Source of the DNA: Begonia masoniana
Lineage: Eukaryota > Streptophyta > Magnoliopsida > Cucurbitales > Begoniaceae
Length of the DNA stretch: 64,000 bases
NCBI GenBank assembly: GCA_022432975.1
Contig: CM039512.1
Location: 29,912,574 to 29,976,573 of the forward strand
Reading direction: 5' to 3'
The notes beneath the pieces were generated by a model, which searched no databases, was not told the origin of the DNA, and saw only the letters and a list, made by a program, of their open reading frames with translations. Positions 5,011 to 53,126 of the stretch are shown piece after piece; positions within the stretch are counted from its first letter, which is position 1; each line of letters begins with the position of its first letter. Position numbers and translations under genes: made by a program.

Positions 5011-5179
5011 GCAAAAACCCTCTGCAGGGAGAGGGAAGATCGTGAGTACACGTGGACGGCCCTGAGGGGACACACGTGGCAGCTAGCCCATCGGATGGAC
5101 CTGCACAACTTGACCCCGCGTATGGTGAGATCTAGAACGGGGTGACGTGCCAGCAACGTATAGCTGGGCGGTCGTTACA

Positions 5180-12033: not shown

Positions 12034-13389
12034 TATTCTGTAACACCCGAGAATTTCCTGTAACGTGCGTAGCTTAGGTTAGAAGTGTTAGGAGGGTTAC
12101 TCATTTAAGTGGCATGTTGTGCATTGAAATAGAAAAGAAAAGAGAAGTGGAGAAATTGACAATTCAAACTAATATAGGTTTGAAAAGTCAAACCAAAGGA
12201 AGTTTGACAAGTCAATGTATGTTTGGAAATTTAGTGTTGACAATTCAAAGGCTATTTAGAGGAATTAAATGAATGCAAAGTAGGGCATTCACGTTGAAAT
12301 ACATGTGAGAAAAAGGAGGGGTTTGAATTAAAATAGGAAAGTTTGAGTGGGCAAAATCAAAAAGTAAAAAAATAGTTAGGTTAAAAAGGTGAAATGGTAA
12401 TGTTTAATCATCTTCTCCCCTCTTTCTTTCTCTCCCACGATCCAGCCAGCCCTCAAAGCTCTCCCTCCTTCTTTCTATAGTTCTTTCAAGGATTTCAAGG
12501 TAATAATGCATGGGTTTTGATTTTTATACTTTGAGGTGAAGTTTATTGAAGGTTTTAGTGAGTTTTAAGTGTTTTTGGTGAGGGCTTGGAAACCCTAATT
12601 GGTGAAGTCCGAAAATTGAGTTTTAAATGTTAGATTTCTTCCTTATGTTGATGATTTGGTTGTTGAATGACTTGGGTTAGGTGATTTATGGAGTTAGATT
12701 GAGATTTGGAAATGAGTTTGGGAAAAACCGATTTTAACCTAAAGTGCACCGGTTCTGTTTTCGTATTTTCGGAATTGCTAAGTTGATTGTTTGGTTACTT
12801 TGAGTGATTCAATGGATAGTAGACGTGTAGAGGTTTCCGAGTTGGGGTGGCACGTCGAAATCTGTTGAAAAACGAGAAAGTTATGGCCGTTTAAAGTTGG
12901 ACGTCGGTAAATTTCATAAAAATCGGGTTTGGTGTGTTGGAAATGATTTGTGTCATAACCTAGTTAGTTTAGGTTAAGAATTTCTTTAGTTTAGTTAGTT
13001 GATTTTCATAGAATCTTTTAGTTTGCTATTAAGTAAGTTTTTCGTATTTGTTAGGTGATCGAACGTGTGATTTGACTGGTGGAAGTGAGAAAGCAATTAC
13101 CGAGATGCCAGGTAAGTAGAGGACGTTATGTTTTGCCTTCGGGCCTACACCAAAGAACGGTAGGGAATTGTTGTTTATTGATTGCTTTGATTGTTGGGAA
13201 TTGTTGTATGTTGATTGCTTTGCTTTGTTTTGGTTTGGTTAAGTATTTGTGGGACAGACATAGTTTGAATGGTTGCTTGTATTGTTCGGTTATGTGGTTA
13301 CCTTGTATTGTTTTGGTTAAGTGTTTTGCATACTTAGTGTGGTGAGAATGAATTGAAAGATATGAACTGGTATGCAATTTGGTTTCGAG

Positions 13390-13830
13390 TAGAATCGTCT
13401 TGTGGGCACGTGGCTCGTTGAGCACCCCGCAAGGGATTGTACTAGAAATAACCTCGAGTGGAATTGTCTTGTGGGCACGTGGCTCGTTGAGCACCCCGCA
13501 AGGAAATTTTACTGTAGAATCGTCTCGTCGGGCACGTGGCTCGTTGAGCACCCCATGAGAGATTTTACTAGAGAGGGACTATAGTAGATTCGTCTTGTCG
13601 GGCACGTGGCTCGTTGAGCACCCCGCAAGGGACTCTACTGTAGAATCGCTTTGTGGCACCTCGTTGAGCACCCCGCAAGGGATTATACCAGAGTTAGCCT
13701 CGAGTAGAATAGCCTCGTGGGCACGTGGCTCGCTGAGCACCCTGCGAGAGATTTTACTAGAGATGGTCTAGAGTAGAATAGCCTCGTCGGGTACGTCGCT
13801 CGTTGAGCACCTCGAGAGGGATTTTACTAG
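13390..13830 (+). repeat. Degenerate ~70-bp tandem repeats with G-boxes
   Basis: About six or seven units share GGGCACGTGGCTCGTTGAGC followed by ACCCCGCAAGGGATT-like sequence. Most contain the G-box CACGTG, a plant bHLH/bZIP target; the unit near 13650 has lost it, and the last reads TACGTCGC. They lie in the putative second intron of A2. A5 has a related run at 33020-33230 on the opposite strand. Confidence 0.85.
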
Positions 13831-13933
13831 AGACAAATGCAACTGAAATGAGTAAGAAAGCAGCAGAGTGAGTAGAATTGGCATGTGTGAGGGGGTTGTG
13901 CTGTGTGTTGAGTTGAGTTGTCGTGTTGTGTTG

Positions 13934-14437
<504 letters not shown>

Positions 14438-15580
14438 ATGGGTTGGGATGGTAGTCGGTTAAAGAGTAAGGCATTGTTGATGTGGGCAAATCTGTGTTTT
14501 TTTTCGTGTCGTTGTGTTGTTATGTTAGGGTTGTGTGAGGTTGTGTGTGCATTGTGCTTGTTTATATTTGTTATCCCTACTTGCTAAGCGTAAGCTTACG
14601 TGTGTGTGTGTGTGTGTGTTCTTTGGTGTAGGTGACGAGTTCTTTACAGGTGAGATAGACGGGACCGCCGAGGATTAGGCTGCAGTTGGAGGAGTACGGG
14701 GTGCGCCAGTGCAGGTTATTGTCGGGGCGTCTCGGCTACTGTCTTCCTCGGGTTTGTGGGAGGTTGTTTCTTTTTGGTATGTTGATAGTTGATGGGTGTC
14801 TTTAAGCTGTTTTAATGGGTTAAGTTGTTTGAAGTGTGAATGTCTATTTTGAGAAAAGTTAGAAGAATTTGGAGGTTTGGTACGTTGTAGTTATAAATGT
14901 TTGCGTAATTATTTTGGGATGTCTGAGAGTTGGTTGAGTTGATGGATAATAGTCCTACATGGTTGTGGTTTGAAACTATATGTTTTGGTTTTAAACTTTC
15001 AGGTTTTGGTTTATCGAGTTTTAGGCGTTATGCCGCTCGTTTTGATTTTAAAATAAATAACATCGGGTTACGTTCACTATTTTTGTTATAATTCTTTTGA
15101 AGTCGGTTTTCCACGAAATTTACGGGACTTGAAGATTTAGGTGTTGGGAGTATATGGTAAAAATTTTAGAATTTTTGGAAGTGTTTAGCCTGGAGAAAAT
15201 TGAAGAAAAAGGGGTGAGGGTCGGCTGGGAGTGCAGGGGCAATCGCCAGGGGCGATTGCCAGCCACCTCTCTGGTACTGTAGCACCAGAGAGGGTGGCGA
15301 TTGATCGCCACATTGTGGCGATCAATCGCCACTGTTTTATAAAAAAAAAAACATTTAAATTTTAGTTTTTTTCAAAGTTTCCTATTTCGAAGTGGTTTTA
15401 ACCCGACATTTTCTGACGCATTTTAACTGTATTTGGGGCACACTTTCTAACAAAACTCGAGGGTTTGAAAAACCAAAAAACGAGTCGAAAAATTTACGAA
15501 AATTATTTTAAACGTCGTTTTACAAACGGGTTGGGTTTGAAATGTGACGCACCGAGCCGAGGCGGGTTCGGGGCGTTACA

Positions 15581-16272: not shown

Positions 16273-16276
16273 ATTG

Positions 16277-18821
16277 TGGCGACCCTAACGAGGTACCCTT
16301 ATTTTCCGTACAATTTTTTTCTTTTTTATATGTACAAACTCTAAACCTGACTTTCGAGCGGAAATAAAACTTTAAAAATCGTAATTGAGATTGTTAACGA
16401 CTTTTGAAAACTACTTTAAAAACCATTTGAAATAATCTTAAACCATTAAGTTAAACAATTAAAAACTAAAAGAAAATAATTAAAATCTTTATGTTTAAAA
16501 ATCAGCAAGCGATAGAACTGGTGGCGATCAATCGCCAAAAACTGGCGATTGATCGCCCTTCGGCGATTGCTCCTGGCGAGCAATCGCCCTTCGGCGATTG
16601 CTCAAATCACCTAGCGATCGCCACTCAGGCGATCGCCGCGAGAAGCGGCGATTGATCGCCTCCAAGAGGCGATCAATCGCCATGCTCTCTAGAATTTCTC
16701 CAGAGAGCACAGCTCCCTCCTCCTTCTTCTTTCTTTCTTCCTTCTCCTTTCAATTTCCTGCAAAACCACATAAAACTTCACCACTTTTCTTTCATTTTCA
16801 TAACAACTCTAACTTGGTCTATACACTTCCAAATTTCACGAAAACTAACTCTATGGATTGCTCTAAAACCGTGCGTATCCATACGGTTTAAGTCCCCTAA
16901 AAATCATCAAACAAACCCAACCAAATTCTCAAGACAACATCAACATTATAAAGGAAATTTCCTTAAAAAAAACGTCTCCAAAACGATCACGTCACCAAAT
17001 CATTCAAAACGACACAACTTCTAACCTACATTCACTATTCAATTCCCAAAATATCAAACTTCCCCACGTAACCTAAAATCTCTCACATTTTTAACATCTA
17101 AACGAGCTTACATTGATTACCCAAAATAGCTTGGAGCACACCCACCGTCACCGAACCTTACCAAAACACACCCCGTCGCCACGAGCACCATCCGTCGACC
17201 ACCTATTCCTTGCCATTGAGAGAACTCTCACCTTCACACCTGTCACCTACATTATACAACATAAACATTAAGCCTAATGCTTAGTAAGGGAATGTACTAT
17301 ACATGACATATGCATTAATGCATGATTCTTTTCATAAAACATGTTCATTTACTTATTCTTATTCTCTTTTTTTTCTTTTCCTTTTGGTTGACATGGATTA
17401 AGGTGGGGATGTGCCAGGGAGTAGGCCAAGTGCTTGTACATAGTCCTTTCGGTCGTATTCATGTTCCATCGCATGGAAGTGACATTGGTTTTGTTGTTCT
17501 GGCCATACTGTCCCAACCCACACTTAATCGTTACCTTTCCTTTACATACATCATACTTGGAACGTTTCATATGACATTTGAGAAAACATGATGCATGAGG
17601 AATCTACGTATAACACATCATCAAAACATATCATCAAGCAATTTGCAACGTACATGGACATACATTACTCACAAGGAAACTAACAAGCAGTATCTAACAT
17701 CCTAGGCTACCCAATTCATTAAAAACCCCAAATCAGAAAATCATCATCAAGCACAAAACCTAGTGTTGACACGATGTAGGGCCTTAGGGGCCGGAAACCT
17801 AACATCCACTTACCTGGCATCCTTAGCAATGCCGAGCACCGTCCGTAAGCTGTGTCCACCTAAGGCATTTCATAAATAACGGCATCAAAATCGATCCTAA
17901 ATAAACGAATTCCAAACTTAAACGAAATCCCTAACTAAGGTAATTTTCCTAAAACCATGGTTTTTGTCATTCAGGCATTTCATCGAATACTTCACGTGCA
18001 CATTATTATTCACAAATTCCTTCCTAATCCGACATTGCCAAAACGTTACCCATAACACCTACTTCAGTGTGCCATAGCTAATTCTCAAACCATACTTAGC
18101 AATCAAGCCTAGAAATCTCGAATTTCCATTATACATTAAAACGATATATTCAAACACTAAAATCCAATCCCATATCCGTTTTCAATCTAAAAATCATCAA
18201 TAATTTCCAATCTTTCATCAATAATCGTCAATATAGCAAAACTATAAGTTTTTTAATCAAAAACCTAAATTTACATAAATCCTAAATCGATAAAACCTAA
18301 CGAGAAACGGACGCCTGAGGAGAGCCGAATCAAGAAGTCACCGTGGAAGGGTGAAGGATCGCCAAAAATGGGAGGGGGATGAGTGCTCTAGTGGTTTGGC
18401 GTAGAAATGGGGAAGAGGAGAGAAAAGAGTTATGTATTTATTAAATTTTTAACCTAACAAAATTACCTTTTTGCCCATCCCTCAATCATTTAGCTTAGTT
18501 CACTATTTCGTCTATCGATTTTGTTTCTCCGAAACTCCCTTATTCCTCCAAATGTTCCAACTTATTTCTAGGGTTCTAACGAAACTCTCCGTTCGCAAAA
18601 CGGACCTAATTTACTATTTTTATGACTTAAAATGCTATAGGCAGAAAACCGTAACTCGACGTTACACTATCGATTGGATTTCTAAAAATTTGCTTATCTC
18701 TCTAAAAATCCTCATAAATTCCTAAGGTTCTAATGAAACATCCCATTCGAGAAAAGACTTTAATTTACTATTTTACGAAAATACTTCTAAGAGCGAAAAC
18801 CCATAAATTCCGGGCGTTACA
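16277..18821 (-). repeat. 5' LTR of retrotransposon D (2545 bp)
   Basis: Near-identical to 5665-8293 apart from scattered substitutions and loss of about 83 bp at 18301-18310, relative to 7691-7783 in the partner. The deletion removes the first donor-like site (7742 in the partner). The second donor (about 17818), second acceptor (about 17246) and paired motifs at 17769-17780 and 17246-17257 remain. Confidence 0.95.
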
Positions 18822-18826: not shown

Positions 18827-20383
18827 AAATACTTTGCAAGAAATTTGTGTTGGAGTAAAATTGAATAGAGCCATGGATTTGAGGGCAAATCCTTTGTCAC
18901 CCCAAAGGATAATGTGCCATGGAAACCTAACACAAGGCAAACACCATGGAAGCTAATCTTACATTTTAGTTCTATTTATTTATGTAGGAAAAGTTGCTTG
19001 CAAAGAAGCAAGGAGAGCCTCCACCACAAATTCACAAGGAGATGTCAAAGTTCACACCTAAGAGGAGTTCTAAGAATCCAAAAACATGTGCTAATGTGGG
19101 AGCCAAAAAGGAGAGACTTGAGAGCTTAACACTTCGGCCATGGAAGTTAACTTAGGTCACTCTCTCTCCTTGAAAGCTTGAAGAATGATGTAGTCCAAGA
19201 AGCACCAATAGGAGCCAAGAATTTGTCCACTTTCGGGGTTTGGGTGAACTTCGACCCATCTCATACTAGGTGAACATTCGACCCAATCTCGTACAAATTT
19301 GTTTTTCAACGACGACTTCCCAACTGGCTACCCAACTTTGTACTATTCTCGCCCGAGCACTCTTAACTTCAGAGTTCTGATAGGATCCGATGTAATTGTG
19401 TTATAAAACGCGTCTTACTTTCTAAGGGAGACATTATTTACATATGTTTTATTTCCATCTTCTCCCCAAACAATGTGGGATTGCGCCCGACCTTGTATTT
19501 TTGGTCCTCACAATGGATCTCTCAAGACCAAGCATCAAGCCATTCAATCCAATAATTAGCAAGGAGGAAGCACATGGCCGATTCTAGAAGGGCCTTTTAT
19601 TTTCAACTTATGTTTGTATCATTTTGAATCATTTCCTGAATCTTATATTATTTAGTGTGTAGTATTGATGGTGGGGACCATCGAGTGAGTAGGAGAGAGC
19701 CACATGGCAAGAGGAGACCATAAAGTGCTTGGTTTCCTCATTTGGTCGAGCACTCATTTTCCCCCCTTTTATTCTTTTGAATTTTTACTTCTTTTGTAAG
19801 AGTTTTGAGTGGAAACCCTAATTCCCTTGGAGGCATTATTTATACCCTCCTTAAGGCTTGTAATCTACAGCACATTTTGAATAGAAAAACTATAGTTCAA
19901 CTACAAAATCTTGAGCTCTCAATCTTCAAGTGGCCGTATCTCCTCGGTGAGTAATATCTGATTGAGTGCGTGTTTAATTTGGTTTCCATCTTTGTGAGTG
20001 TAGTAGATTCCATTGTATTGCTCCTTTTTTCTACCTCTTCCTTTAAGGTAAAACATCCAACAATGGTGTAACATGCTCTCATCATAGCAAGTTGAAATGT
20101 TCATCCTCAAGGAGCGCCAAAGAACCGAGAAAGTGCAGTCATATCATTTTTCGGACCAACATGCACCTCATCAGCCATATCTTTTCATCCCCATCGAATT
20201 AACCTTGATTTTAGGATGGTATTTTCACCATATCCAGGGTAAGATTCTATTAAAATTTTAGCTTCATTGGAGCTATTTTGATAGAGTTGTTCGATCATGA
20301 AGTTTACCCATTTATCGACCAAAATTGTTTTGTAACCGATAGTGTTTTTGTGTTTCAAACTCCTTCCCCATTTTTGAAACACA
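18827..20383. other. Host sequence with old promoter-like/LTR-like DNA, no gene seen
   Basis: Continuation of the DNA into which D inserted. A TATA-like TTATTTATACC near 19835-19847, followed by a leader-like segment, suggests a decayed LTR or promoter. No PBS could be confirmed near 20060, and open frames here are short and unrecognised. Confidence 0.4.
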
Positions 20384-26110: not shown

Positions 26111-26749
26111 CAACTCTGACTGCTAAAAGAACTTGTAAATTCACTGTAATCATTCAAAATAGCTCAAGTCCACAAATTTGCTCCAAAATTCAATAAAAGA
26201 CCTAATTATAATCATCAAGTATCTTTTCCAGAAAAAAAATCCCCAAAAAGAAACATAACCGAAATACTAAGGTTATCACTGTCTTTAAAATTCTAAGCAA
26301 AAGTAAACTGAACCTTAGTTCACAACTTTCTAAAAATCCAGCAAAGCAACTACATCTAAAACCAAATCATGTTTTCATAATCAGAACAAGAAAACCACAG
26401 AGGTGTTAAAATTATCAAAACTACTACTGTTATTCAAATCCTCGACACACTTCAACAAAACACTTAACCATTGAGACTTCACATACTGACATTTGTTAAA
26501 CCGCCTCATCAGTGCACCAAACCGCGGCATAGAAGTGCTCCTCCAACTAGCCTAGTCCTCAACATGCTCAGAGAACACACCTGCTGAAACTTCTTCACCT
26601 ATATCACAAAACTCATCTATTAGCCTAATGCTAAAAATAAGTAGAGCAATAATGAAATGTTAAGCTGAAACATAAATCCTAGTCATGCCATTTCTACTTT
26701 CACATCTCAGTTGCATTTACATTCTTTCTCTGATCTGATCCCTCGGTTC

Positions 26750-26955
26750 CATTGGGAGTGGGATCAATTTTTCCAAAGTTATACATTCTCAATCGTATAT
26801 TCCACTTGGGAAGCGGATCAATTTCCCAAAGTTATACATTCTCGATCCTATATTCCACTTGGGAAGCGGATCAATTTCCCAAAGTTATACATCCTCGATC
26901 CTATATTCCACTTGGGAAGCAGATCAATTTTCCAAAGTTATACATCCTCTTCATC
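26750..26955. repeat. 53-bp tandem repeat, about 4 copies
   Basis: Units containing CCACTTGGGAAGCGGATCAA recur at 53-bp spacing (about 26803, 26856, 26909), with one earlier diverged copy. B2 has two diverged units in the corresponding place (47520-47670). Both lie in the putative second intron. A3 inserted immediately after this array. Confidence 0.88.
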
Positions 26956-26960
26956 GATTA

Positions 26961-29491
26961 TGTAACACCAGGGATTTTTTTTTAGGAAAAAAATTGGAGA
27001 GAAAATAAAAGAATAATAAAATAGGTTGTTTTAATTAATTTAAAAGAAAAAGTGAATAAATTTGGTGGAGCTAAATGGTTTCTTAATTTAGGTTCGGGTA
27101 TTCCTAGTAAAATTAAGACGGGGGTTATAATTTAATAACGAGATTTAACGAAATTCGTAATGGTCGAAAAACACGTGAGGGCAAAATGGTAAATGATAAT
27201 TTATTAAAACAGTTTTAATTATTATTATTATTATTAAAGAAATAATAATAATAAAACAACAGAATGGCCGAAGCCATTCTGTTGTGTTCGAGCACTCGAG
27301 AACGAGAACAGGGGAGCGACGAGGGAGACGCGAACGGGCGACGATCGACGGCCGTTCACCGCCATAATTTCTGGCATTCTCTGGCCCGGCCAGACAACGG
27401 CGACGAGCAGGGTTGGTTGTCTCCGTGCACGACCCGACAGGTAAGGGTCGATTTTTTTTGCCCTATTTTCGGCTCTGTTTGTGGCCGAGGGTGAGGAGCC
27501 CGATTTGGCTCCGATCACCGGCTAATTTTGGACGTTCTCAGCATGGGTTTTCCGACCCTTGGACTAGCAATGGTCACCGAGCTGTGAGGAGCTCAATTTG
27601 AGCAAAAATCAGTGAAATCCAAATTAGGGCATTTCGGTTTTGTGTGTGTAGCCTCGGGATTTTGGTTAGATTATGTTAATTAGGTATGAGGGTGGTTGAT
27701 TGGTGAGGAATTTGGTGAGAATTTATGAAAAAATAAAAAATGTGAAATTCCCAGCTTAGGGCAGTTCGGGTTTTGCCAGTTTTAACCTATCTAGGGTCGT
27801 TTGTTTTAAAAAAATTTTTGTCAGGTTAAAATAGGTTATTAGAGGAGTACGTGGCCGCTGGAATCGTTTGATTCCAATAACCGACGCAAAAGTTACGCGC
27901 GTTTGAAGTTTCGGGTCAGTTTTTACCGAACCCAAATTAGTGGCCCGTTTAGTTAAGTTTTAGTTAGATTAGGCTAGAAATAGTAGTTTGACAGTAAATT
28001 GGTGAATGTGGGCTTAATTTTAATGAAGTTGAATATTTGTTGTAGGTCGAGCCGTAGGTGGGCAGGTAACCGAGTAGTCTCAGCGAGCTAGGACGCCAGG
28101 TAAGTAGTGGATGCGTGTTTGTTGCCTTCGGGCCTACACCATAGAACGGTAGGGATTGTTTGTTTGGTTGTTATGTTTTGCTTTGTTTCATGCATTGGGT
28201 GTCATGCATCATTGTTTTCTAAACTACGAAATCACGTGTTTTGCATGTTTGAGTGGTGAGAATGATGTAATGAAAGATAAGAATTGATTGCAACTTGGTC
28301 TCGAGTAGAATAGCTTCGTCGGGCAAGTGGCTCGTTGAGCACCCCGCGAGGGATTTTATTCGAGATGCCCTGCTAATGTACGTAATGTATCGTGAGTATG
28401 AATGCCTCGACCTGTTCGTGCTTGAAGTGCACAATGAAGATTCTACGATCGATTGAGGGAGATTCGGTTGGCCGTCCCGGACTGTGTTAGGACGTGTGCC
28501 TCCGGTCTTGCTCCGTGGATCAAGGTGTGGCCATCCTGGACTGTGTGGGGGGGTGTGCCTACTTGGTTCACCTGGAAGAGAAAGATAAATGCAACCGAAA
28601 CGAAAAGAAAACAACAGAGTTTGTAGAAACTGCATGTTAGGGTTGAGTCGAGCATTTAGTGTGTTGTTGTGCATTATTTCCCTACTTACTAAGCGTTAGG
28701 CTTATTTTTGTGTTCTATGGTGTAGGTGGCGAGTATTATCCAGGCGAGATAGAGGGGACAGCCAAGGACTTGACCGCAGTAGGAGGAGTTCGGGGCACGC
28801 TGGTGCGGGCAGCTGTCGGGGCGTCTCGACCATGGTCTTCGGAAAGATGGGGGTGGAATAGTATTTTTGGGTCGTGTATGATTTACATTTATTTTGGTGG
28901 TTTGTAAAGTTGTCCTTTGGTTGATGTTTTATTGTATATCTATTTGTATTTGGTGTATATAGTCATAGTTATGGGTGATACGTCGCCCTATACTGTGGAT
29001 TTTCTTCACTTAGGGATGTTAGTATTATAGTTTCCTCTTTACTATTATTTGGAGATTTCGTATGATGGTTAGTTGAGTAAGAGTGTTCTGGATCTGGTTG
29101 GGTATAGACTTGTGTGCAGGTACTTAGCATTGTGGAGGCACCAATTTCAGGCATTATTTTGCCGAAATTTTCGGAGAGGGCGCCGTGGTGCTTAACGGTT
29201 AGGATTAAGGGGTGAGTCTAGGCATCTAGGTATAATATAAAAGATCTTCGGGAGACTTAGCTTTAGATTCCACTGTGTCCAATTTTTTTTTTATGTTTTG
29301 GGTGTATAAAAATTAATCATTAGGTTGTTTGATTTTTCAAAAAATAAACATCGTCGGTTTTCAACTGTCTTTTTGTTTTCGGTAACCTTATAGGGTCAAA
29401 CTTTTATCGAAAATTCTTTTAAACGTTGTTTAACCGGGGTTAGAGTGAGCCAAGTAACGCACCGAGCCAGAGTGGGTTCGGGGGCGTTACA
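26961..29491 (+). mobile_element. Solo LTR A3, uninflated reference copy of family A
   Basis: Starts TGTAACACCAGGG, ends GTGGGTTCGGGGGCGTTACA, TSD GATTA perfect at 26956-26960 and 29492-29496. At 2531 bp without large arrays it shows the family plan best: AT tract, AACAACAGAATGGC hairpin (about 27254-27285), donor 1 CGACAG|GTAAGG at 27441, acceptor TTGTTGTAG at 28045, 54-nt middle exon, donor 2 GCCAG|GTAAGT at 28100, branch-like CTTACTAAGC at about 28685-28694, acceptor 2 GGTGTAG at 28725, then about 770 bp to the 3' end. Confidence 0.97.
28100..28725 (+). other. Putative intron 2 of LTR A3, with end-pairing stem
   Basis: GTAAGT at 28100 and AG at 28724-28725 bound 626 bp. The 15-mer CCTACACCATAGAAC (28133-28147) is a perfect reverse complement of GTTCTATGGTGTAGG (28712-28726), which spans the acceptor AG. 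Equivalent pairs exist in every LTR of the window. Splicing is inferred from consensus sites only. Confidence 0.5.
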
Positions 29492-32052
29492 GATTAAGGG
29501 GCGGATGAGTTCCCTTAGTAGTTGGTCTGTTACAATCTGTTCATGTCTTACCGTGTCCTTACATGTAAATTCATTTTCGTATTCTTTCCAAAAACATGAT
29601 GCATGACATACATAAAACATTCAAACATGCATAAACCTACTGTTTTGTGATGTAGGCCCGAAGGCACACACATCCTCTACTTACCTGGCTTCCTGGAAAT
29701 GCTAGGTTGTAAGCTACCTCAGAAGTTTGCTCACTTAGGCTGGAGAAATCGCTGGGAGAATCTCCTAGATTGCTCTGGTGAGTTGAGAACCGAAATGGAA
29801 GTGGAAAATAGTGGCGGCTAAACTCTTAGCTAAACCCTCATTTATAATATATATTTCACAAATTACACATATACCCTTGACAATCCAAACTTTAACCTAA
29901 CCATTGCTTCACACATTTCCCTTCATTAACATACTCAAGCTATTAGTCATATCCCCCTTAATTCCATAAAAATGTACACCACTAACGTCAATTATTTGTC
30001 GGGTGCTACAGTTTTTGGTCGTCCGATTGCAGCCCTGCTGCCCTCTTCCACCTTTCTTTTCCAATTTTTTTCTAACACTTTATACCATCACATTTCCATA
30101 ACATCAACCAACCCCTTCCCAAGTCCATCAAATCATCAAATCATCAAATCATTAACTATAAAACTTCTACGATATCTATTTTAATAAAATTGGGAATCAT
30201 AAAATGGGAAGCGAAAGTCTTTAAAACGTAGTTAACCCTTAATTTAAATACATTTGTCTATCAAGTTATATTTAAACAAAACATTTCATTGTTTATGAAA
30301 ACATCAATCCTTTTTCTATTTATATCAAAACATTACTAACATCTACCAAAATCATTTCAACAAAACATTTAAAATCCATACAAAATCCGTATCAAAACAC
30401 TTAAGAGCTGCCCATGGGTCAAAAGTCGTTCTAACAGCCACAAGCATTCACCATGAACATACTCCTTCAACTGCATCCTTTATCCTAGTCGAGACTTGAA
30501 ATCCTCAACTGTAAATTCTTCACCTACATAACAAAGTTCAAACTAATGAGCCTAATACTCAGCAAGTGATGCATAATAAAATGAATGCTCATGCACATGC
30601 TATTCGTAAAACCATGTAGTTTTTGTTTTTCTTATTTCCTGTTTTTCTCTTGACATTAGTTATTGGGGAACACATAGGGGGAGTAGGTACTTATCATGGT
30701 CTTGGGCGTGGACACGTAATGTGGTCCTGGGTGTGGACAAAGTTCGAGTTCTAGACGTTGACACGTAACATGGTCCTAGGCGTGGACAACCTAATTCAAG
30801 CTCCGCCCCACAAATAACCATTTACATACATCTCGTATTCGTTTCATTCATTCTATTTTCTTACATAAAATGTATGCATAAAATCATTTTCTATGATTTC
30901 GTAAAACGTGATGCATGATTCATGAATAAAGCATATCAACATATCCTCAATGTCATAAACATAACATAACAATCTAACAAATCCATCAATCAACAATTTA
31001 AACATTTCTATCTATCATCACTATAATTTAACATCAACAACTAATTCCATATCCTAATCTACCCAACCACGTAACCATAAACCATATATCCTAACAATCT
31101 ATATATATATCATTAATTTATACCATTATAGCCATCAACTTCCTAGAACTTTGTGGTGTAAGTCAATCAGCCAAACACATACAACATACACTTACCTCAG
31201 GTCCTTAGCAGAAGTTTAGGCAATTTAACCACTTCTCCTTTTTAGTTACAAACATGTAGCATGTACATTAAACCATCAACATCAAAATATATCTCCACAA
31301 TTAAAGTGTAACACCCCGAACCCGCCCCGGCTCGGTGCATCACTTTGCTAACCTATCCCGAGTTTAAAACCACGTTTAAAATAATTTTCGATAAATTATC
31401 GACTCTGTTTTCGGGTTTTCCGAACCCTCAAAATTTTCTTGAAAAGCGTGCTCAAAATTTGTTTAAAATATATCAGAAAATGTCGGGTTAAAATAATTTG
31501 GAAATAGGAAATAAAATGAAAATTAAAAAAAAAAATGTATTAGGGCGCTGCTAGGCGCCGCGCGCACGCCCTGTGTGCGCTCAGCGCGCGCCCAGCACGT
31601 CCAGCACGTGCTTTTTGCATGCCACGGGCGATCGTTCGCCGCCCAACGGTGATCGATCGCAACCCTCTCTGTTCTTGACTCAAAAACGCACCCCGGCGGC
31701 GATCAATCGGCGCTCAGTGGCTTTCGATCGCCACCCGTTCTGTCTTTTAGCCCCAAAAACGCCCAAATTGACCTTTTTTCGACTTCCTCGAATTTCCTTC
31801 ATATTTCTACAAGCAAAACACTCCTAAAAATTCCAAAATTTTCACCATATCTTCCCGACACCCTCAACTCCATGTCCCGTAAAAATCTTAGAAAACCGAG
31901 TTAAAACGGATATTAACAAAAATAGAGAACGTAACCGACATTATTAATTTTAAAATCAAAACGGGCGGCGTAAGGCCTAAAATTCGATAAACAAAAACCT
32001 GAAAATTAAAAAAAAAAAAAAAAACATACTGTTTCAAACCCCAAACATTTAT

Positions 32053-35000
32053 TTTAACGCCCCCGAACCCACCCTGGCTCGGTGCGCCACTTTGCTAACC
32101 AATCTCTCGCTAAAACCTCATTAAAAAAATAAAATTAACACCGCAGGATTTAAACTAAATCTCCTAAAACTCTTTTAGGTCATACCTAGTTGCCTAGACT
32201 CCTTTAATCCTAACCTTTAAGCACCACGGCGTCCTTCCCAAAAATTTTGGCAAAGTAACGTCTGAAAATGGCGCCTCCAAAATGCTAGATACCTGCATAC
32301 AATCCAATCCCAAACAATCCAGAATAATCTTACTTCACTAACCAGCTATCCACTCAACAATCCCACATACAAAAACCTCCAAATACATGGCGACACATCA
32401 CCCTTAACCTAACTATATACAACAAATACAATTAGTTACGCTTTCCCATCATTTCTACAAACAGAAATCTAAAATAAACTATCAAATATAAAGCCCCACA
32501 TCTCCCGAAGACCATGGTGGAGTCGCCCCGACAACTGCCCGCACCGGCATGCCCTGTGCATCTCTGACTGCTCCCAAGTCTTGGCTGACTCACATAGCTC
32601 ACCTGTACCCGTGTCGTTACCTACACCACAGAACACACACACACACACATAAGCTTACGCTTAGCAAGTAGGGATTAACAAATACAACTAGATAAAATGC
32701 AAGCTACACACAACGCTGAACAAGACAACCAAACAACACAACGACACGAAACAAAACACAGATTTGCCCGCATCAACGATGCCTTATTCTTTAATACAGT
32801 ACGACAACGCAACACAACACCACAACACCACAATGCAACTCAACAACCCTACTCCACACAACACGACAACACGGCCAGACAATACTAGTTGCCCGCACCC
32901 AAAAGAATGCCTTACTCTTTAACCCAGCACGACACAAAATGCAACTTCTAGACTCACTGCTAGTTTCAATTACATTCTCCATTTATTAAACTTTTACCCG
33001 TGCATCTTTCATAGAAATCCTCCCGAGGTGCTCCACGAGCACTACTCCTCGGTGAAGCAACTCTATAAAATATCACGGCTCACAGTGCATCTCTCATAGA
33101 AATCCTTCTGAGGTGCTCCACGAGCACTACTCTCCGGCAAGGCATGTCGAGACCCTCTCGAGGTGCTCCACGAGCAATACTCCCCGATGAGGCAGTAAAT
33201 CCTTCCGAGGTGCTCCACGAGCACTACTCAAACCCGTGCTCACAACTCATGCTCACTCATCATCAAACCCGTGCTCACAACTCATGCTCACTCATCATCA
33301 AACCCGTGCTCACAACTCATGCTCACTCATCATCAAACCCGTGCTCACAACTCATGCTCACTCATCATCAAACCCGTGCTCACAACTCATGCTCACTCAT
33401 CATCAAACCCGTGCTCACAACTCATGCTCACTCATCATCAAACCCGTGCTCACAACTCATGCTCACTCATCATCAAACCCGTGCTCACAACTCATGCTCA
33501 CTCATCATCAAACCCGTGCTCACAACTCATGCTCACTCATCATCAAACCCGTGCTCACAACTCATGCTCACTCATCATCAAACCCGTGCTCACAACTCAT
33601 GCTCACTCATCATCAAACCCGTGCTCACAACTCATGCTCACTCATCATCAAACCCGTGCTCACAACTCATGCTCACTCATCATCAAACCCGTGCTCACAA
33701 CTCATGCTCACTCATCATCAAACCCGTGCTCACAACTCATGCTCACTCATCATCAAACCCGTGCTCACAACTCATGCTCACTCATCATCAAACCCGTGCT
33801 CACAACTCATGCTCACTCATCATCAAACCCGTGCTCACAACTCATGCTCACTCATCATCAAACCCGTGCTCACAACTCATGCTCACTCATCATCAAACCC
33901 GTGCTCACAACTCATGCTCACTCATCATCAAACCCGTGCTCACAACTCATGCTCACTCATCATCAAACCCGTGCTCACAACTCATGCTCACTCATCATCA
34001 AACCCGTGCTCACAACTCATGCTCACTCATCATCAAACCCGTGCTCACAACTCATGCTCACTCATCATCAAACCCGTGCTCACAACTCATGCTCACTCAT
34101 CATCAAACCCGTGCTCACAACTCATGCTCACTCATCATCAAACCCGTGCTCACAACTCATGCTCACTCATCATCAAACCCGTGCTCACAACTCATGCTCA
34201 CTCATCATCAAACCCGTGCTCACAACTGTGCTCACAACTCATGCTCACTCATCATCAAAACCCGTGCTCACAACTCATGCTCACTCATCATCAAACCCGT
34301 GCTCACAACTCATGCTCACTCATCATCAAACCCGTGCTCACAACTCATGCTCACTCATCCTCAAACCCGTGCTCACAATTCATGCTCACTCATCATCAAA
34401 CCCGTGCTCACAACTAATGCTCACTCATCATCAAACCCGTGCTCACAACTCATGCTCACTCATCATCAAACCCGTGCTCACAACTCATGCTCACTCAACA
34501 TCAAACCCGTGCTCACAACTCATGCTCACTCAATGCACAACATAAATAACCACAACAACCAAACAATCACCAAACAACAACGAACAAACAATACCAAACA
34601 ACAACAACCACAATAAGCAATTCATTCTCACACAACTCAATATAAACAACACAACTATCAAACAATAAATCCTACCGTTCCGTGGTGTAGGCCCTAAGGC
34701 AAAACAAACGTCCTCTACTTACCTGGCGTCCTAGCCCGATGAGGATTCTCGGTTACCTGTCCACCTACGGCTCGACCTACGACAAATATTCAAACTTCAT
34801 TAAATCAAGCCTAATTCACCAATTTACTCTCAAACTACTATTTCTAGCCTAATCCAACTAAAACCTATCTAAACGGGCCACTAATTTGGGTTCGGTAAAA
34901 ACCGACCCTAAACTTCAAACGCGCGTAACTTTTTCGTCGGTTATCGGAATCGAACGATTCTAGCGGCCACGTACTCCTCTAATAACCTAATTTAACCTGC

Positions 35001-35852: not shown

Positions 35853-38820
35853 TTTATGACCATTATCCAACAATCAAATAACACCGTTGACTTGAAAACT
35901 TTCCAAAATAACTACGAAGTCATTTATAAAAACCATATACCAAAATGTACTAAAATATATCACTTTTCTAACTTAACTAAACATCCCAAAACATTTGCAA
36001 AACCTAAAAACAAACCATCTATCCCATAATTTTCACCTCCCACACTGCCCGAGGCATACAGTGGTCAAAACGCCCCAACAATAGCCTGCACCGGCAGACT
36101 CCATACTCCTCCGACTGCGGCCTAATCCTAGGCGGTCTCGTCTACCTCACCTGTATACAACTCGTCACCTACACCATAGAACACAAAAAGGTAAGCCTAA
36201 CACATAGCAAGTAGGCAAATAATGCACAATACACACTAAATGCACGACTCAACCCTAACATGCAGTTTCTACACACTCTGTTGTTTTCTTTTCATTTCGT
36301 TTACATTTGTCTTTCACTTTCAGGTGAATCAAGTAGGCACACTCCCCCACACAGTCCAGGACGGCCACGCCTTTATCCACGGAGCAAAACCGGAGGCACA
36401 CTTCCTAACACAGTCCGGGATGGCCAACCGAATCTCCTCCTTTGTCGATCGTAGAATCCCTAGTGTGCTTTCCGGCATGAGCAGGTTGAGGCATTCAGAA
36501 TCCCCATTGTGCCTTTCAACACGAGCAGGTCGAGGCATTCAGAATACCCAGTGTGCTTATCAGCACGAGCAGGTCGAGGCATTCATACTCACGACGTATT
36601 ATGTACTTTAGCATAGCATCTCTCATAGAATCCCTCTCTGGGTGCTACAACGAGCCACTTGCCCGACGAAGCTATTCTACTCGAGGCCAAGTTACAATCA
36701 ATTCTTATCTTGCATTTCATAATCCTCACCACTCGAACATGCAAAACACGTGATTTTGTAGTTTAGAAAACAATGATGCATGACACACGATGAATGACAC
36801 AAAGTAAAACACAGCAAACAAGCAAACAATCCCTACCGTTCTATGGTGTAGGCCCGAAGGCAACAAACACACATCTGCTACTTACCTGGTTGCTCCAAAG
36901 ACGTTTCATCACTTCGTCACACCGAACGACACGCTCGATTACCTAACCATTAAGGAAAATTTACTTAGTAGCAAGCTAAAGATTCTAAAAATTCAACTAA
37001 CTTAAACTAACCCTCACTTTTTAACCTAAAACTAACCAACACTCAAAAAAATCTCACAATTAAACACATAAACCCGATTCTTATCCAAAATTGACCGTCA
37101 AACTTCAAACGGTCATAACTCTCTCGTTTTTCAACAGATTTTGACGTGCCACCGCAATTCAGAAACCTCTACACGTCTACTATCCATTCAAACACTCAAA
37201 TTAACCAAACAACACTTTCTATTGGTTAATGCATTTTGACTTTTTCAAACCATGAAATTTTCAACTCTTTTTGTTTGAATGGTCAAACTCATTTTTCCTC
37301 CTCTTCCTTCCAACTTGGATCCCTCCTTTAACCTCACTTCCCCTTTGATATTTCACCTACACTAAGTCAAAAGAAAAGTCAAGTACAACACTTTTGTTTT
37401 TTTTTTTTTACTTTCAACCATTTGTTTTTACTTCAAATTTCATAAACTTCTTCTTCCTTTCTCTTCCAACTTATATACTAATACAACTTACTAGAAATTA
37501 TTAGAACCAACCTTAAACTCTCCTAATAAGCTAGTCTAAGGCTACATACATTTTAGAAATTTTTAGGGTGTTACATAAAGTATGCATAAAACCTATCTTA
37601 TTTCCAAATTGAGAAAATCTAAGTTCACATGTTTCCCTAAGAGAAGACATATCCCCTTGCAAACCAACAATCTGATTTAAGCATTCCACCAAATTCCAAA
37701 ACTCAAATTCGGAATACACCCAAAATTGGTTTAACTTCAAAAATTCATAACTTTCAATATACTTAACCAAATTCAATAATTCCAAAGCCCATAGATTCAT
37801 TAAAATGTCTATTATATCCTACTAAAATAGTTTATTAAGATAAAATCAGGAAGATGGTCAAAAAGCACTAAAATCGTAATCTTTCCAGAATACATTTTAC
37901 AGTTTTTGCCTAAATTTCAAAATTCCATAACTTATGATATACTTATCAAAATGCTTTGATTTTAAAGCCTATAGTTCCATCGTTGAGTCTATTTTAACTT
38001 TCCAAAAGAAATTATCAAATGAAAATTATTTGATTGGACCAAGAACATCAAACCCGAAAGTGTGCTGTTTTCTCCCTATTATGAACATACTTGGAAAAAT
38101 TTGATATTTTCAGCCATTTCCACCCCCCAAAAAACCTCACAACCAAAATATACATCATCTAAGCAAGAAATGGAGACATGAAAACAAATTTCGTGCAGCA
38201 CAAACCCAAGTTCCTCAATCTCCCAAAAACTCAACAATAATCACAACTCATAAGCCTTTAACCACTAAAATGCATAAACCATAACCCAACCATTATTCTT
38301 ACCTGGATTTCCAGAGAAATGGAAGACTTTGTCGTGGGAGGGAGCTTCAGCAAAAAGGGAGAATTTGCCGTGGGTTTTTAGGGCTGGTGTTTTTGTCTTC
38401 TTACTTACTTCCCTTAAAGGATAACCACTAAGAGGAGAATGAGGTGTCATCCTCTAGTTTAAAGAGTTTTTTATTTAGTTCTTTTCTAACTCTTCTCTTC
38501 CATTTCTAACTAAATAGTCGTCTCTCCCTTTTTGGTTTCCTTCTACTCCAATTGCCAACCTCAATTGGCTAATTATATCTTCTTTTCCTCTTTTCTTTCC
38601 ATGCCCAACAGTCAAACACACCATAAACTGCCACAAGTGCACTTCATCCTTTTTCTTTCCTACTTTATAAATAAATCTAATTATAAAATAATTATATTTT
38701 TACTATTCATAAAATTCATTAAAAGTAACATAATTTATCGCGCTCTTAAAATAAATAGTACTTTAAAATTTTAGGTGTTACAGCTACGCTTAGAATTTGG
38801 ATAGCTTTTAGCCCAATAAC

Positions 38821-41800
38821 TAGGGGTGAGCAAAAACCGGTCAAGTCCGGTTTTGAAGAAGATTGAAACTAAAATAATAAAATTCAATTTTTAATTTTTA
38901 AGACCGGGATTGTTTTTATTTTTTTAAGGACCGGACCAAAACCAGAACCGAATTTCAGTTCCGGTTCTAATCCGGTTCCAGTTTTCCCACTTTTTTTTTT
39001 AAATTAAAAAAAATTTCTCTATTTTGTATTCTATAAGTAGACAAGAGTGTTTTATATTTTTCTAAAATGGTGGTCACAAAAAGTATATTAAAATAGCTCT
39101 TGGAAAGCCACAAGCAACCATATCAAAAGAAGTAGTGGATTAAGTAAAAATGTTGATTCCTCCATAGAAGTGGCCCGTGAGGTCACCCCTAAGATGGAAT
39201 GGTTCTTCCATTTGCTCCTCTTGCTATGTCCTTTGATGCTATAAATTATTTTGTGGATATGCCCCCGGTAAGAAGAACCTGAATTCGTAGAGCTGTTTTG
39301 TTCTTGAAATTTCATATCTCAAAATTCTAACTATATGGTGTTTCATTATAAAACAGGGAATGAAGGAGCAAGGCGTCACTGAGGATAGGCTTCAACTTCT
39401 ACAACCAGTTTTTACTAAGTGCACAGCCTCACAATTGTTCTACAACCCTGTAAAAATGAAAAAAATACCACATGTACATGTAGTCACTACAAGATGCAAA
39501 ATAAAAATATAATTAAATAGAAAATGAAGTAAAAACAATCAAACATACAACGATGTTCTCTCTATTCGCTAATTTTAATTAGTTTGCCATTTTCACCTCG
39601 TGATATAAAATCTACAAAATAATATAAGTCGCAAAATAAGTATATAATTAGTAATTACTAAAGAATAAGAGTAAAATTTAAAATATACCTTTTTTAAACT
39701 CATTCATCACATCATTAAAGTTTTCTAAATTATGGCTTTCCTCACGAATCCAGCTTTGAGTGCAAATAAGCGCCTCGACAGTCTTTGGTGATAAAGAACT
39801 ACGAAAAGAATCAAGTACACGTCCACCACAACTGAAAGCTGACTCCGAAGGAACTGTAGAAATAGAAATAACCAATACATCTTTTGCAATTTTACTTAAT
39901 ATTGGATATTTCAATGAATTCAATTTCCACCATGTCAAAATATTTTGATTTTCTGAAAACGTTTCCAATTCCTCAGATAAGTATTGATCAACTTCCGTCC
40001 TATTGCTTGCAGAACCTCGCTGACTATTATGATTACAAAATTTCTCAAATAGCTTATCGTAAGCAGAACCAGTTATTTGTTCTGTGGATGAAGATGTCGC
40101 AACACTAGTTCTACCATAATCCTATGATATTTCACCCCAAATCCATTTTGTATTGAAAATATAATCTGTTAATCACGGTTCGTACTTTACTCACCAAATC
40201 TGTAGCTTTATCATTGTCAACCAACATTGTAAGACAATGTTCGAAAAACTCTATCTTACATCTTGGATCTAAAACAATTGCAACATACATCAAGAAATTA
40301 ATATTATCATAATTTCCCCAATACTTGTCAAATTTTCCTTGCATTCCAATAGCCATTTTCCTCAATGATGGACTATCACACTCAGCATACTCCATGATAA
40401 CCAATTTCAAACTGCAAAGTTCGCTAAAATATTTATTTGATGTCACATGTAAAGAGGCTGAAACAGTCACAGTCGTATCATAAAAAACTTTTAAAAATTT
40501 AATAAGTTTTCTAATATTTGCCCAATCTGTTGTAGTGGGAGATGTATCCCCACTCAACCCACCAATGAAATTACTATCGGTTTCCATTAACTTGTCAAAA
40601 GCTTTTTCAAATTTTTCAGCACTTGCTAACATCAAATATGTAGAATTCCATCTTGTAGACACATCAAGAGAAACACTACTTTTGCATGCGATTTTAACAT
40701 TATCAGCACAATTCTTAAAATTTTGTAACCTTGCAGGTGATGATCGGACATATTTAACAGCTCTACGCACTCTATCAATAGCCTCTTGATGATTTTTCAA
40801 TCCATCACATACAATTAAGTTTAATATGTGTGCAAAACATCGCATATGAATGTATTGTCTATTCAAAACTAAACCATTCCAATTTAGAACACTTTTGATC
40901 AAATATGAAATTGCAACATCATTTGAAGAAGCATTGTCAACTGTGACAGTCAAAACATTTTCGATTCCCCATTCAAACAAACATCTTTCCAATTCTCTAC
41001 CAATTGTTTCACCTTTATGATCCAAAATCAAACAAAAATTTAAAATTTTCTTATGAATGGTCCAATCACTATCAATGTAATGACCAGTTAAAACCATATA
41101 ATTTATATTCTGAATAGAAGTCCATGTATCTGTAGTCAAACATACTCGTTGTGATGTTCTTCTAAAGTACTCTTTCAATTTAATCTTTTCTTTTTCATAA
41201 AGACTCAAAATATCACGAGCAAATGTAAATCTAGACGGAAGCAAAAACTTTGGTTGCAGATATTGAGAATATGCTCTAAAGCTCTGTCTTTCAACAAACT
41301 TAAAAGAAAATTCTTCGTTAATTATCATCTTCGCAAGTAGTTCTCGACAAGTAGCAATACTAAAACATGTAATTTGTTGTCCCTTATTATTCGTATTCTG
41401 AAAGCTCAAAGTCTTTTGATTCACATCTATATTTGCCAACAATTTCGCACAAATACAGATGTTTTTTTTCAAACTTGATGTCCCATTTCTAAGTGTATCA
41501 CATGCATATGTTTTTCCACAATGATTACATTTTGCTCTAGAATTAGTTTCATCAATAACAAAATAATTCCAAACATCTGATTTGTTTTTCCTTTCCCTTC
41601 GAACATTAACACTAGAACTCCCTACATTTTGATTATCATTAGTGCTTTTCGTTTCCATCCTATAAAATACAAATCACAACCATTCGTAATCAATAAGCCA
41701 AATCCAACAATCTAACAATCTAAAAATTCTAAAATTAGAACAGCACATTAACATCAATAAATAACTAATTAACATCAAACACACACATCAACAATGCACA

Positions 41801-43501: not shown

Positions 43502-46065
43502 TGTAACACCCGGTTCTTTACGGGATTTTGTAATTATATATGTATAATGGAATTTTCGCAATTATGTCAAATTAAGTCGGTTTCATGAAAAGAAAGCGTT
43601 ATTACGATCCTTATAATTAATATAGATTCTAAGAAAATTTCAAGAATTTTAGGAGTCGTAAAGCTAATTTTACGAGAATTACGTTTCTCTTAATATAAGG
43701 GACGTTCTGGTAAAAATAGTAAACGTTGTCCGATTTACGAACGGACAGTTTTAATGGAACCCAAGTAATAAGTTGGATTTATTGGCGAAATAAGGAAGTT
43801 TGGAGAAACCGAATCGTTAGACAATTAACGAAACAAAGGACGAAACAAATAGAAAATCAAAGGAAGGGTAAAATGGTAATTTGCCAAGCCAAAATTAATA
43901 AAATCACACTTATCTCTTTTCTTCCTCATTTTCACGATTTCTCCCATTCTCTTTGGCAAAATTCTCTCGGCGACTTCATCTCTTCCTCACGGCGTTCTCC
44001 ATTCCGGCGACCAACGCTCTCTGATTGACCTCCGATCCTTCACGTTTTCTCCTCTAAACCCGACCCTAGGTATGATTCTATAGTTTTGGAAGGTTATTGT
44101 TCGGTTTTTACGAAGTTACACGGTTAGAGTTTCGTTTAAGTTTTTGTTAAAAACGTGATTTAGGGTTGGAAATCGGTAGGGTTACCGTAGTTATAAATAT
44201 AATGGACATATTGGGCGTATTGGACGAAGACTGGTCTATCCATTGTCGAATAAGGTTTGTTGAATTTTTGAGGTTTGGAAAACTCCATTAATAGAGGTTT
44301 TGAGGTGTCGAGCGTGAATCGCTCGATAAAAATGCCTCAATGAGTTAAATTAGAGTTTTAGGAAATTTATTTAGTTAAGAGTTTCGTAAGTTTATACGTT
44401 TATTGGTTTTGACTCGTTTTAACGACAAATATTGTGAATTTGCATTAGGTAAACGACGCTCGTGGAAGGAGCTAGAAGTTCAACGCGCACGAGGTAAGTT
44501 CTTGTGACTTACTCTAGCCGATTGGCCTACACCGTATATCGAGGTCACGTCGAGGATTATTGAGGATTTGTTTGTTTAAACGTTTTGGTTGGGTAGTTAG
44601 GATTAGTTCTTTTATATGATATGTTTTTAATTTCTTTTATTGTCTCGATGGTACGTATGTTGTTTGTTTATACTATGTTATAAATTGTTCATGCATCACG
44701 TCTTTTCAATTATGCATAGAAAATGAATTTCCACACTATGTTTTAAAGAAAATAGTGATGTGGCCCGAAAGGGGGCTATTGACCTATTGTGAAGGCTGAG
44801 AAGGGCCGGTCACAATACCGCATCCAATAAGGACCCATGTATGTTATATGGTCATGTGAGGTGGGGCTCAGGCATGCCTGTACGTATGTAAGCATGTACC
44901 CCCCTCCGCTAGGAGGAAAGGGTTGTCCAACCGCCGGACGTGCCCTCTCCATTTAGCGGGTTGAGATCTCGGTGACAACCTATGTAATAATAAGAAAATG
45001 TTGCATGATTTACGAACTCATATGCACAGCATGCACTTGCATTTACGAAACTTGCTGAGCCTTTAGCTCATAGATTGTCTGTATGGTGTAGGTGATCTTG
45101 ATATAGGTGAGGATGAGATCCCTCCACCCGAGGAATGATGCAGTTGGAGGAGGATGGCCCGTGGGAGTGTGCTGGGCAGTCAATATGCCTTTTGACTCAT
45201 GGGGATGTACGTAAGTATTTTGGGGATACGATAGTTTGATAGAAGGATAGTTTAATTGTATAGATAGAACATTCTAGGATGATTGGTTCTGGATAGTTGA
45301 AAAAAAAAAGATAATTTGATGTTTTGATAAACTTGTTTTATAAAATGTTTTACTAAGTTTTATTTGAATTTTATAGAAATGTTTGGAGACGTTTTAGGTT
45401 ATGCATGGATATGCTCGAGTTTTAGAGCTATCCACGCAGTTGAATTTCGTAAATTTTGTTTCAAGTTACTTGAGTTTAGGATACGTTTTGGTTGAGTTTA
45501 AGTTATGATGTTATTGTGTTTATTGGTGAAGAAGTGATGAATTGTTTAAGAATGTGTGCAGGTAGGAAATGAGAAAGAAAATAGGAAGCAAGTCCTCTAG
45601 AAATCGGATTCCAGAGGACATGCCGATCGATCGCCATCGATTGGCATGATCGATCGCCGCTCTCTGGATTTGACAGAGAGTGGGGCGATTGATCGCCCAT
45701 ATGTGGGGGCGATTGATCGCCCCTAAATTTTATATGGGCGATCTATCGCTACAATGAGGAGCGATCGATCGCCCCTCAGTTTTTTTTCAATGGGCGATCG
45801 ATCGTCTAGCATTGGGCCGATCGATCGCCCCTGTTTTTATGGGACGATTGTCTCTTTTGCCCTCGCCGATGATTTTAATTGTTTTTAACATTTGTTTTAA
45901 GTTTTATTCCAATTTTTTTAAGTTTATTTAAGTGGTTTTACAAATAGTTTTTGAACGATTTTAACGATATAGTCTACGATTTAAATTCCGCACGAATTTA
46001 CGAGATATTACGAGGATAAAAAAAATAATATGGGAAAATAAGGGTACAGTGTTAGGGTCGCTACA
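43502..46065 (+). mobile_element. Solo LTR C1
   Basis: Starts TGTAACACCCGGTTC, ends GTGTTAGGGTCGCTACA, TSD TAGAG perfect at 43497-43501 and 46066-46070. 2564 bp. Donor 1 CTAG|GTATGA at 44070, acceptor at 44447-44448, 45-nt middle exon (44449-44493), donor 2 GAG|GTAAGTT at 44494, branch-like CTTGCTGAG about 40 bp before acceptor 2 GTGTAG at about 45091. Near the 3' end are a hairpin with GTCCTCT...AGAGGAC arms (45592-45619) and many GATCGATCGCC palindromes (45620-45840). Confidence 0.96.
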
Positions 46066-53063: not shown

Positions 53064-53098
<35 letters not shown>

Positions 53099-53126
53099 TA
53101 ATAATAATAATAATATAATAATAATA

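Follow-up and report, generated by a model that had tools for sequence, protein, structure and literature searches.

How can an intron persist inside a long terminal repeat (LTR)? The question is raised by a stretch of 64,000 nucleotides from Begonia masoniana (contig CM039512.1, positions 29,912,574 to 29,976,573; hereafter the window, numbered from its first letter), plant DNA dense in LTRs, many of which carry an apparent intron. In the LTR replication scheme such an intron is lost in the next generation if the spliced RNA is reverse transcribed, so that only copying from unspliced RNA preserves it. An excerpt of PMC3735527 makes the same point, i.e. spliced RNA must not be replicated. The original prediction for this locus held that a motif shortly after the donor of each copy pairs with the motif covering the acceptor, and that matching changes on both arms betray selection on RNA structure. 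Here we describe the covariation of this stem (helix P3), of a second helix that involves the donor (P1) and of a hairpin at the branch-point region, and we discuss whether the three might together restrain splicing.

The arrangement can be followed in A3, a solo LTR at 26961-29491 (+ strand, as are all its features) with TG...CA ends and the 5-bp target duplication GATTA at 26956-26960 and 29492-29496, which sits inserted in the intron of another LTR, B1. Its putative intron 2 (28100-28725) begins at CCAG/GTAAGTAG and ends at GGTGTAG/GTGG, the slash marking the splice junction. The 5' strand of P1 consists of the donor site and the next five nt (28100-28110), and its 3' strand, TCCCTACTTAC, lies at 28679-28689. 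It is followed by a covarying branch-point-like CTNA hairpin, TAAGC-loop-GCTTA (28690-28704). P3, the stem of the original prediction, joins a 5' arm at 28133-28147 to a 3' arm at 28712-28726 that covers the acceptor TAG and the first exon base. Just ahead of the 5' arm is a small hairpin, GCC-UUCG-GGC (28124-28133), at whose position other families carry GGCC-loop-GGCC; it is conserved with little covariation, and we did not use it as covariation evidence because it is too invariant for testing.

Across families the donor GTAAGT, the CTNA motif and the acceptor TAG/G are kept, with exceptions in single copies (e.g. the donor of A1, and CTGG in D63). The enclosed stretch contains 33.4% U and 37.8% GC; for the flanking exon sequence (55-61 nt per side) the values are 23.0% and 45.3%, and the difference has the same direction in 34 out of 34 copies tested. 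Judging by the GT-AG ends and the donor, branch-point and acceptor consensus, we infer that the enclosed stretch is a U2-type spliceosomal intron and that it is spliced.

The arms of P3 were located by homology, and complementarity was not used: nhmmer models of both ends, made from 13 window copies, were combined with a matrix on CCTACAYC / GRTGTAGG. In the window 15 five-prime and 15 three-prime matches combine into 15 pairs, and no pair has fewer than 10 of its first 12 positions paired. The 5' arm, about 33 nt past the donor, complements the arm ending in TAG/G. The examples on which the original prediction was built are present in the sequence. All 15 positions are paired in A3 (Watson-Crick throughout), in A1 (964-978 with 4006-4020, two G-U) and in B2 (47358-47372 with 47796-47810), as are 13 of 14 in E, 12 of 12 between 63110-63099 and 61595-61606 (two G-U) and 15 of 17 between 31162-31146 and 30523-30539 (one G-U). 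One example needs amending: the pairing at 13144 in A2 exists, but the full arm there is CCTACACCAAAGAAC, and the sequence named for it, CCAAAGAAC, begins six bases later.

The same procedure was applied to 66 genome loci from the same 795-Mb assembly (308 contigs) and yielded 62 pairs. Two pairs in L001 and one in L031 are copies already counted in the window, which leaves 59 beyond it. From the combined 77 pairs L042 was dropped for a misplaced 3' matrix match; the other 76 represent 43 distinct arm pairs, a sample dominated by the A and X31 types and thin in B, E and F. Their 645 cells comprise 536 Watson-Crick, 52 G-U, 24 A-C and 33 other combinations. Of 15 positions, 13.67 are paired between cognate arms and 12.55 between shuffled arms (standard deviation (sd) 0.13, maximum 13.00 in 5000), and the median duplex energy is -18.9 kcal/mol for cognate and -12.8 kcal/mol for non-cognate arms (45 distinct 17-nt pairs). 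Whole introns were compared in a set of 34, hand-picked from 60 by leaving out 20 A-type and five D44-type near-duplicates and L049; the latter, whose arms pair at 9 of 15 positions, was kept in the arm-pair counts and in the tree tests of P3 and P1. Among the 143,380 possible 12-column helices in the 34 introns P3 ranks first, with 0.94 of its cells paired (mean 0.364, sd 0.09), and sliding one arm by 1-4 columns lowers the pairing from 0.925 to 0.29-0.51.

Related copies can share complementary arms by descent, and the counts were therefore compared with a null on a tree, which was made from the flanking sequence of 71 distinct copies. In this null each position starts from its commonest pair and both arms drift independently at fitted rates (300 simulations). 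The observed pairing of P3 is 94.3%, the null gives 71% (sd 5); 117 cells are changed on both sides as opposed to 23.5 in the null, and neither value was reached in any of the 300 simulations. Parsimony places 11 double changes from one Watson-Crick pair to another at 6 positions, seven of them on internal branches. The matching changes that had been ascribed to selection on RNA structure are thus upheld in the larger, genome-wide set, where the loss of covariation that would have spoken against them did not appear.

The helix search returned a second structure. P1, which pairs the donor (columns 17-28) with the stretch before the branch hairpin, is the sole other distinct helix among the 12 best of the 143,380, with a value of 0.895. 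In the 34 copies its GTAAGT core pairs with ACTTAC or ACTTGC, and the positions beyond it covary: position 7 is G-C in 19, A-T in 6, T-A in 4 and G-U in 4; position 8 is A-T in 16, G-C in 5, G-U in 5 and C-G in 2; position 9 is T-A in 19 and A-T in 4; position 10 is G-C in 18 and T-A in 3. Of the five positions beyond the donor core 3.97 are paired, compared with 2.85 after shuffling (sd 0.18, maximum 3.61 in 2000). On the tree of 71 copies the paired fraction is 0.866 (null 0.651, reached in none of 300), or 0.761 outside the core (null 0.508, reached in 2 of 300), and 75 cells are changed on both sides (null 19, reached in none of 300). The median duplex energy over the 71 copies is -10.9 kcal/mol, and in B2 all 11 positions are paired, two of them by G-U.

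Whole-intron folding points to the same elements. RNAalifold, run unprompted on a MAFFT alignment of the 34 introns (1120 columns), predicted 22 pairs, i.e. 14 in the P3 stem (13 of the 15 in register and one extending it), four in the branch hairpin and four in a small internal hairpin; 9 of the 22 show change on both sides. The branch hairpin follows directly on the CTTACT-like sequence and holds the branch-point-like CTNA, and its arms vary together (TAAGC/GCTTA, TGAGC/GCTCA, TTAGC/GCTAA, TGAGAT/ATCTCA). Its paired fraction is 0.864, as opposed to 0.07-0.52 in a sliding control. When the branch-hairpin pattern was searched across species, viral contigs gave 0 matches and prokaryote contigs 5, about chance level by our own arithmetic. 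In single-intron energy folding at least one P3 pair has a probability above 0.5 in 8 of 10 window copies (introns of at most 800 nt) and in 17 of 28 copies elsewhere (A-type loci thinned).

The direction of the host elements can be read from their borders. Among the 17 A-type loci inspected, five have the exact primer-binding site TGGTATCAGAGC three nt past the LTR end and a sixth has it with a single change; others show a purine tract ahead of the LTR start. From these positions it follows that donor to acceptor is the sense direction. Coding sequence was found in one element, L068, whose two D44-type LTR matches are separated by 7.25 kb. They enclose a zinc knuckle with RVP_2, RVT_1, RT_RNaseH and Integrase_H2C2, then rve (the integrase core, scoring under its cut-off), in separate open frames, with the order protease, reverse transcriptase, RNaseH, integrase and with the + strand as sense. 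Its RNaseH piece is closest to Ty3 among solved structures, and the element ends with an SH3_Tf2-1 match and then a PF00385 chromodomain match (E 0.0013, 19.1 bits, cut-off 25.1). The internal piece between two A-type LTRs at L067 has no open reading frame of 100 aa or more. The hosts thus look like chromovirus-like Ty3/gypsy elements; their LTR ends and polypurine tract may resemble those of Tekay (Tekay/Del clade).

The order along the RNA is donor, 5' arm of P3, P1 partner, acceptor, so P1 crosses P3. If both helices form together, as we think they do, they would tie donor, branch region and acceptor into a long-range pseudoknot from which the intron interior loops out freely. This suggests the following scheme. 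In several chromovirus-like Ty3/gypsy families the sense U2-type intron inside the LTR would be sealed by the pseudoknot: P1 would join the 5' splice site to ACUUAC-like sequence immediately preceding the branch point, the hairpin would hold the branch-point region, and P3 would pair the stretch 33 nt past the donor with the 3' splice site. With all core splicing signals hidden, enough RNA might keep the intron to act as genome, and the remaining RNA would be spliced for expression. Between the arms the loop would be free to vary, and minisatellites expanding within it are what one would expect of a constraint on the ends alone. We regard it as an evenly balanced proposition that the pseudoknot dampens or gates splicing and thereby preserves intron-containing genomic RNA for reverse transcription. 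A more specific version is tentative, and we would sooner bet against it than for it: a self-locking switch in which a U1-like ACUUAC copy rivals U1 for the 5' splice site while the crossing helix hides the 3' site, so that the pseudoknot decides between genome and messenger, and which compensatory change kept across several families while the enclosed DNA grew minisatellites.

It is useful to compare this arrangement with known systems. The zipper stems of yeast introns (RPS17B, RPL7B), as described in excerpts of PMC12311795 and PMC12350175, are alike in that a long-range helix runs from the donor side to the branch-point side. They avoid the splice sites, whereas the helices described here contain donor and acceptor, cross as a pseudoknot, covary and sit in a retrotransposon LTR. 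According to an excerpt of PMC12350175 a zipper stem, defined there as compatible with splicing, lies at least 10 nt from the donor and at least 20 nt from the branch point; P1 starts at donor +1 and ends beside the branch hairpin, and by breaking both distances it argues for masking. The nearest precedent for masking that we found is influenza A segment 7 (PMC3369869), where the 3' splice site lies within a pseudoknot helix that is proposed to regulate splicing of the viral RNA. That case is a 63-nt fragment that switches between pseudoknot and hairpin at one site, while the LTR structure is long-range and takes in donor, branch region and acceptor. The introns of Ogre, EVADE, BARE, CRR and Bagy2 resemble the present one in that partial splicing divides the transcripts into pools; in the excerpts of PMC12786077, PMC3735527 and PMC6317226 they lie in or between coding regions, unlike the LTR-internal intron here. 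Plant LTR elements are generally without introns, as an excerpt of PMC12786077 puts it, and in the parts of the open-licence literature that we surveyed we found no intron inside a plant LTR and no pairing of the ends of such an intron.

Two further classes of structure differ more. Group I and group II self-splicing introns pair the donor with an internal guide and contain pseudoknots; the LTR case differs from them in its spliceosomal consensus sites, its U-rich intron and its freely variable interior. Conserved long-range pairings in human pre-mRNA (PMC8052449) reportedly link complementary regions to processing, and they concern host genes, unlike the LTR elements here.

Several observations weigh against a pseudoknot that restrains splicing. 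P1 has a GTAAGT core that hardly varies and shows no covariation of its own (5.58 paired positions, 5.60 when shuffled), position 9 pairs in just 33 of 71 copies, and in a fixed register at least 9 of 11 positions are paired in only 9 of the 15 window copies; the six misses include A1, whose donor is mutated, and B1 and D50, where the script misplaced the anchor. P3 is missing from the thermodynamic ensemble of both F copies, and 11 of the 28 copies elsewhere stay below the probability of 0.5. Two coarser measures of P3 lie within the tree null, namely the number of positions with any both-sided change (6, null 5.0, reached in 114 of 300) and of extra Watson-Crick types (8, null 5.4, reached in 52 of 300). 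As events, G-U changes are not favoured over A-C changes (7:7 on internal branches, 19:16 at tips), so the strand-specific tolerance expected of selection on a sense RNA is not supported. We had considered this asymmetry as proof of RNA-level selection, since the cells looked favourable (55 G-U and 25 A-C, null 79 and 82), and left it unused because the events did not. Finally, the effect of such stems varies: in an excerpt of PMC12350175, mutating a yeast zipper stem is reported to have reduced intron retention.

The last point leads to the reading in which the helices promote splicing, as yeast zipper stems do, by gathering donor, branch point and acceptor so that minisatellite-swollen introns of 0.45 to 3 kb still splice. 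P3 leaves only about 33 nt from the donor to the stem, and the arms persist while the span varies from 453 nt (B2) to 3057 nt (A1), both of which suit this reading. We nevertheless consider it rather unlikely: P1 contains the donor and P3 the acceptor, and both would have to unwind before use. The original prediction had left two alternatives side by side, P3 holding the intron ends together or masking the acceptor; as far as sequence alone can tell, the new donor helix favours masking. The structure might instead serve another step, such as dimerisation, packaging, export or the start of reverse transcription, with the overlap with splice motifs being secondary. The structure would be part of an LTR element's RNA, and highly structured retroviral leaders serve packaging; still, the helices fall exactly on the donor, the branch-like motif and the acceptor, and the stretch between has the composition of an intron, which makes this explanation improbable.

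An origin at the DNA level is less probable again, and we regard it as a marginal candidate. On this view the arms would stem from an inverted duplication or be what is left of an old DNA transposon's terminal inverted repeats; hairpin-templated repair or gene conversion would have kept them alike, and they would have no function in RNA. Several copies do have perfect 15-bp inverted arms, and the parity of G-U and A-C events is as this origin would have it, but the arms coincide with splice motifs across diverged families, show no target duplication by eye in 13 printed contexts, and are accompanied by a crossing helix and a local hairpin that covary too. Conversion of a simple motif, in particular, leaves a second covarying helix at the donor unexplained. 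Chance and shared ancestry, i.e. a complementary ancestor whose arms drifted slowly and independently, could draw on the fact that half of each P3 arm (CCTACA / TGTAGG) is nearly invariant and on the two coarse measures within the null; it has next to no probability in our view, as the null reached neither the observed pairing nor the number of both-sided cells in any simulation.

In these abundant plant elements covariation has thus preserved an RNA structure acting in cis that reaches every core splicing signal of the apparent LTR intron, and it would be a strong natural case of a pseudoknot linking the donor of a spliceosomal-type intron to its branch region and acceptor. If splicing were complete the descendants would lose the intron, and the structure could let the element control how often it is removed. 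The structure further suggests why minisatellites are able to expand within these LTRs. How LTR retrotransposon transcripts are divided between translation and replication is a standing question, according to an excerpt of PMC3735527, and these elements make it directly testable.

The remaining copies in the window are as follows. On the + strand, A1 (964-4020, counted from arm to arm) has a mutated donor and a 69-bp minisatellite (~36 copies) inside. A2 (13112-14632, donor 13112) is part of a solo LTR at 12039-15580 with the target duplication TATTC; its P3 arms are 13144-13158 and 14618-14632 and its P1 3' strand is 14574-14584. B2 (47329-47810, donor 47329) has its P1 3' strand at 47763-47773, D44 (44494-45092, donor 44494) its P3 arms at 44526-44540 and 45078-45092, and E (56183-56795, donor 56183, GTAACT) at 56219-56233 and 56781-56795. 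On the - strand, A4 (32620-34722, donor 34722, P3 34691-34677 with 32634-32620) has a 35-bp minisatellite inside, and A5 (36168-36885, donor 36885, P3 36852-36838 with 36182-36168) and A6 (51337-51947, donor 51947, P3 51914-51900 with 51351-51337) belong to the same type. B1 (26598-29684, donor 29684, P3 29656-29642 with 26612-26598) is split by A3. X31 (30523-31195, donor 31195, P3 31162-31148 with 30537-30523) has a stem that extends to 17. D50 (49484-50062, donor 50062) has P3 at 50030-50016 with 49498-49484, and D63 (61595-63143, donor 63143, P3 63110-63096 with 61609-61595) encloses a 16-bp minisatellite (65 copies). Two further copies, F1 (6636-7203, donor 7203, P3 7170-7156 with 6650-6636) and F2 (17246-17813, donor 17813, P3 17780-17766 with 17260-17246), were absent from the list of the original prediction. 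The F-type LTR regions, 5665-8293 and 16275-18821, both with the stem, are 95-97% identical, lie ~10.5 kb apart on the same strand, and are perhaps the two LTRs of one element.

The distance from 5' arm to acceptor has its window extremes in B2 and A1, as given above, B1's 3059 nt including the inserted LTR. Large minisatellites or a (GT)257 run occupy the introns between the arms at 995-3679, 13389-14436, 33228-34532 and 61804-62866, and the repeat units differ by copy (69 bp in A1, 35 bp in A4, 16 bp in D63, GT in A2).

A second, upstream intron is suggested in the A copies (donor 27441, exon from 28046). In A3 this putative intron 1, called from sequence, covers 27441-28045 (donor CGACAG/GTAAGG, acceptor TTGTTGTAG/GTCG), and a putative 54-nt exon (28046-28099) lies between both introns; the donor GTAAG is kept in 3 of 4 aligned A copies. 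A 120-nt search for a P1-like helix in this intron, in this one copy, found at best 9 of 11 positions paired, in a segment of A and T only. A polyadenylation-like AATAAA seen by eye at 29343 would place both putative introns inside the transcribed LTR. The A-type LTR also has a conserved inverted repeat, CAACAGAATGGC-loop-GCCATTCTGTTG (27257-27284), which lies upstream of donor 1 at about 300 nt from the LTR start, perhaps near the 5' end of the RNA; A1 and A4 have homologous sites and A6 an imperfect one. Past the acceptor, at 28726-28780 and at the corresponding place in many copies, a short frame G(D/E)x..GE..x runs for ~15 codons to a stop, and there is also a donor-like GTGAGG; the region may encode protein, may be a micro-exon followed by a third donor, or may be neither. 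A coding role for this third exon, whose short acidic frame (usually ~15 codons) occurs in most copies printed, was set aside because of in-frame stops in the preceding exon of A and X31 copies and frame shifts in some A copies.

Elsewhere in the window, a hAT transposase at 40132-41673 (- strand) has flowering plants as its named relatives, with at most 52% identity among the 120 matches listed. A run of exactly 500 T (55064-55563), ~1 kb of TTTA repeats (59782-60788) and ~0.9 kb of TAA repeats (52784-53694) may be real or assembly artefacts. An Rfam scan of the window at gathering cut-offs gave two 5S rRNA matches and nothing else. One of them (4832-4942, + strand) is held in a 590-bp stretch, 4591-5180, that matches its own reverse complement at 89%, and the other is at 19301-19408 (- strand); the matches bring Cassandra-type elements to mind.

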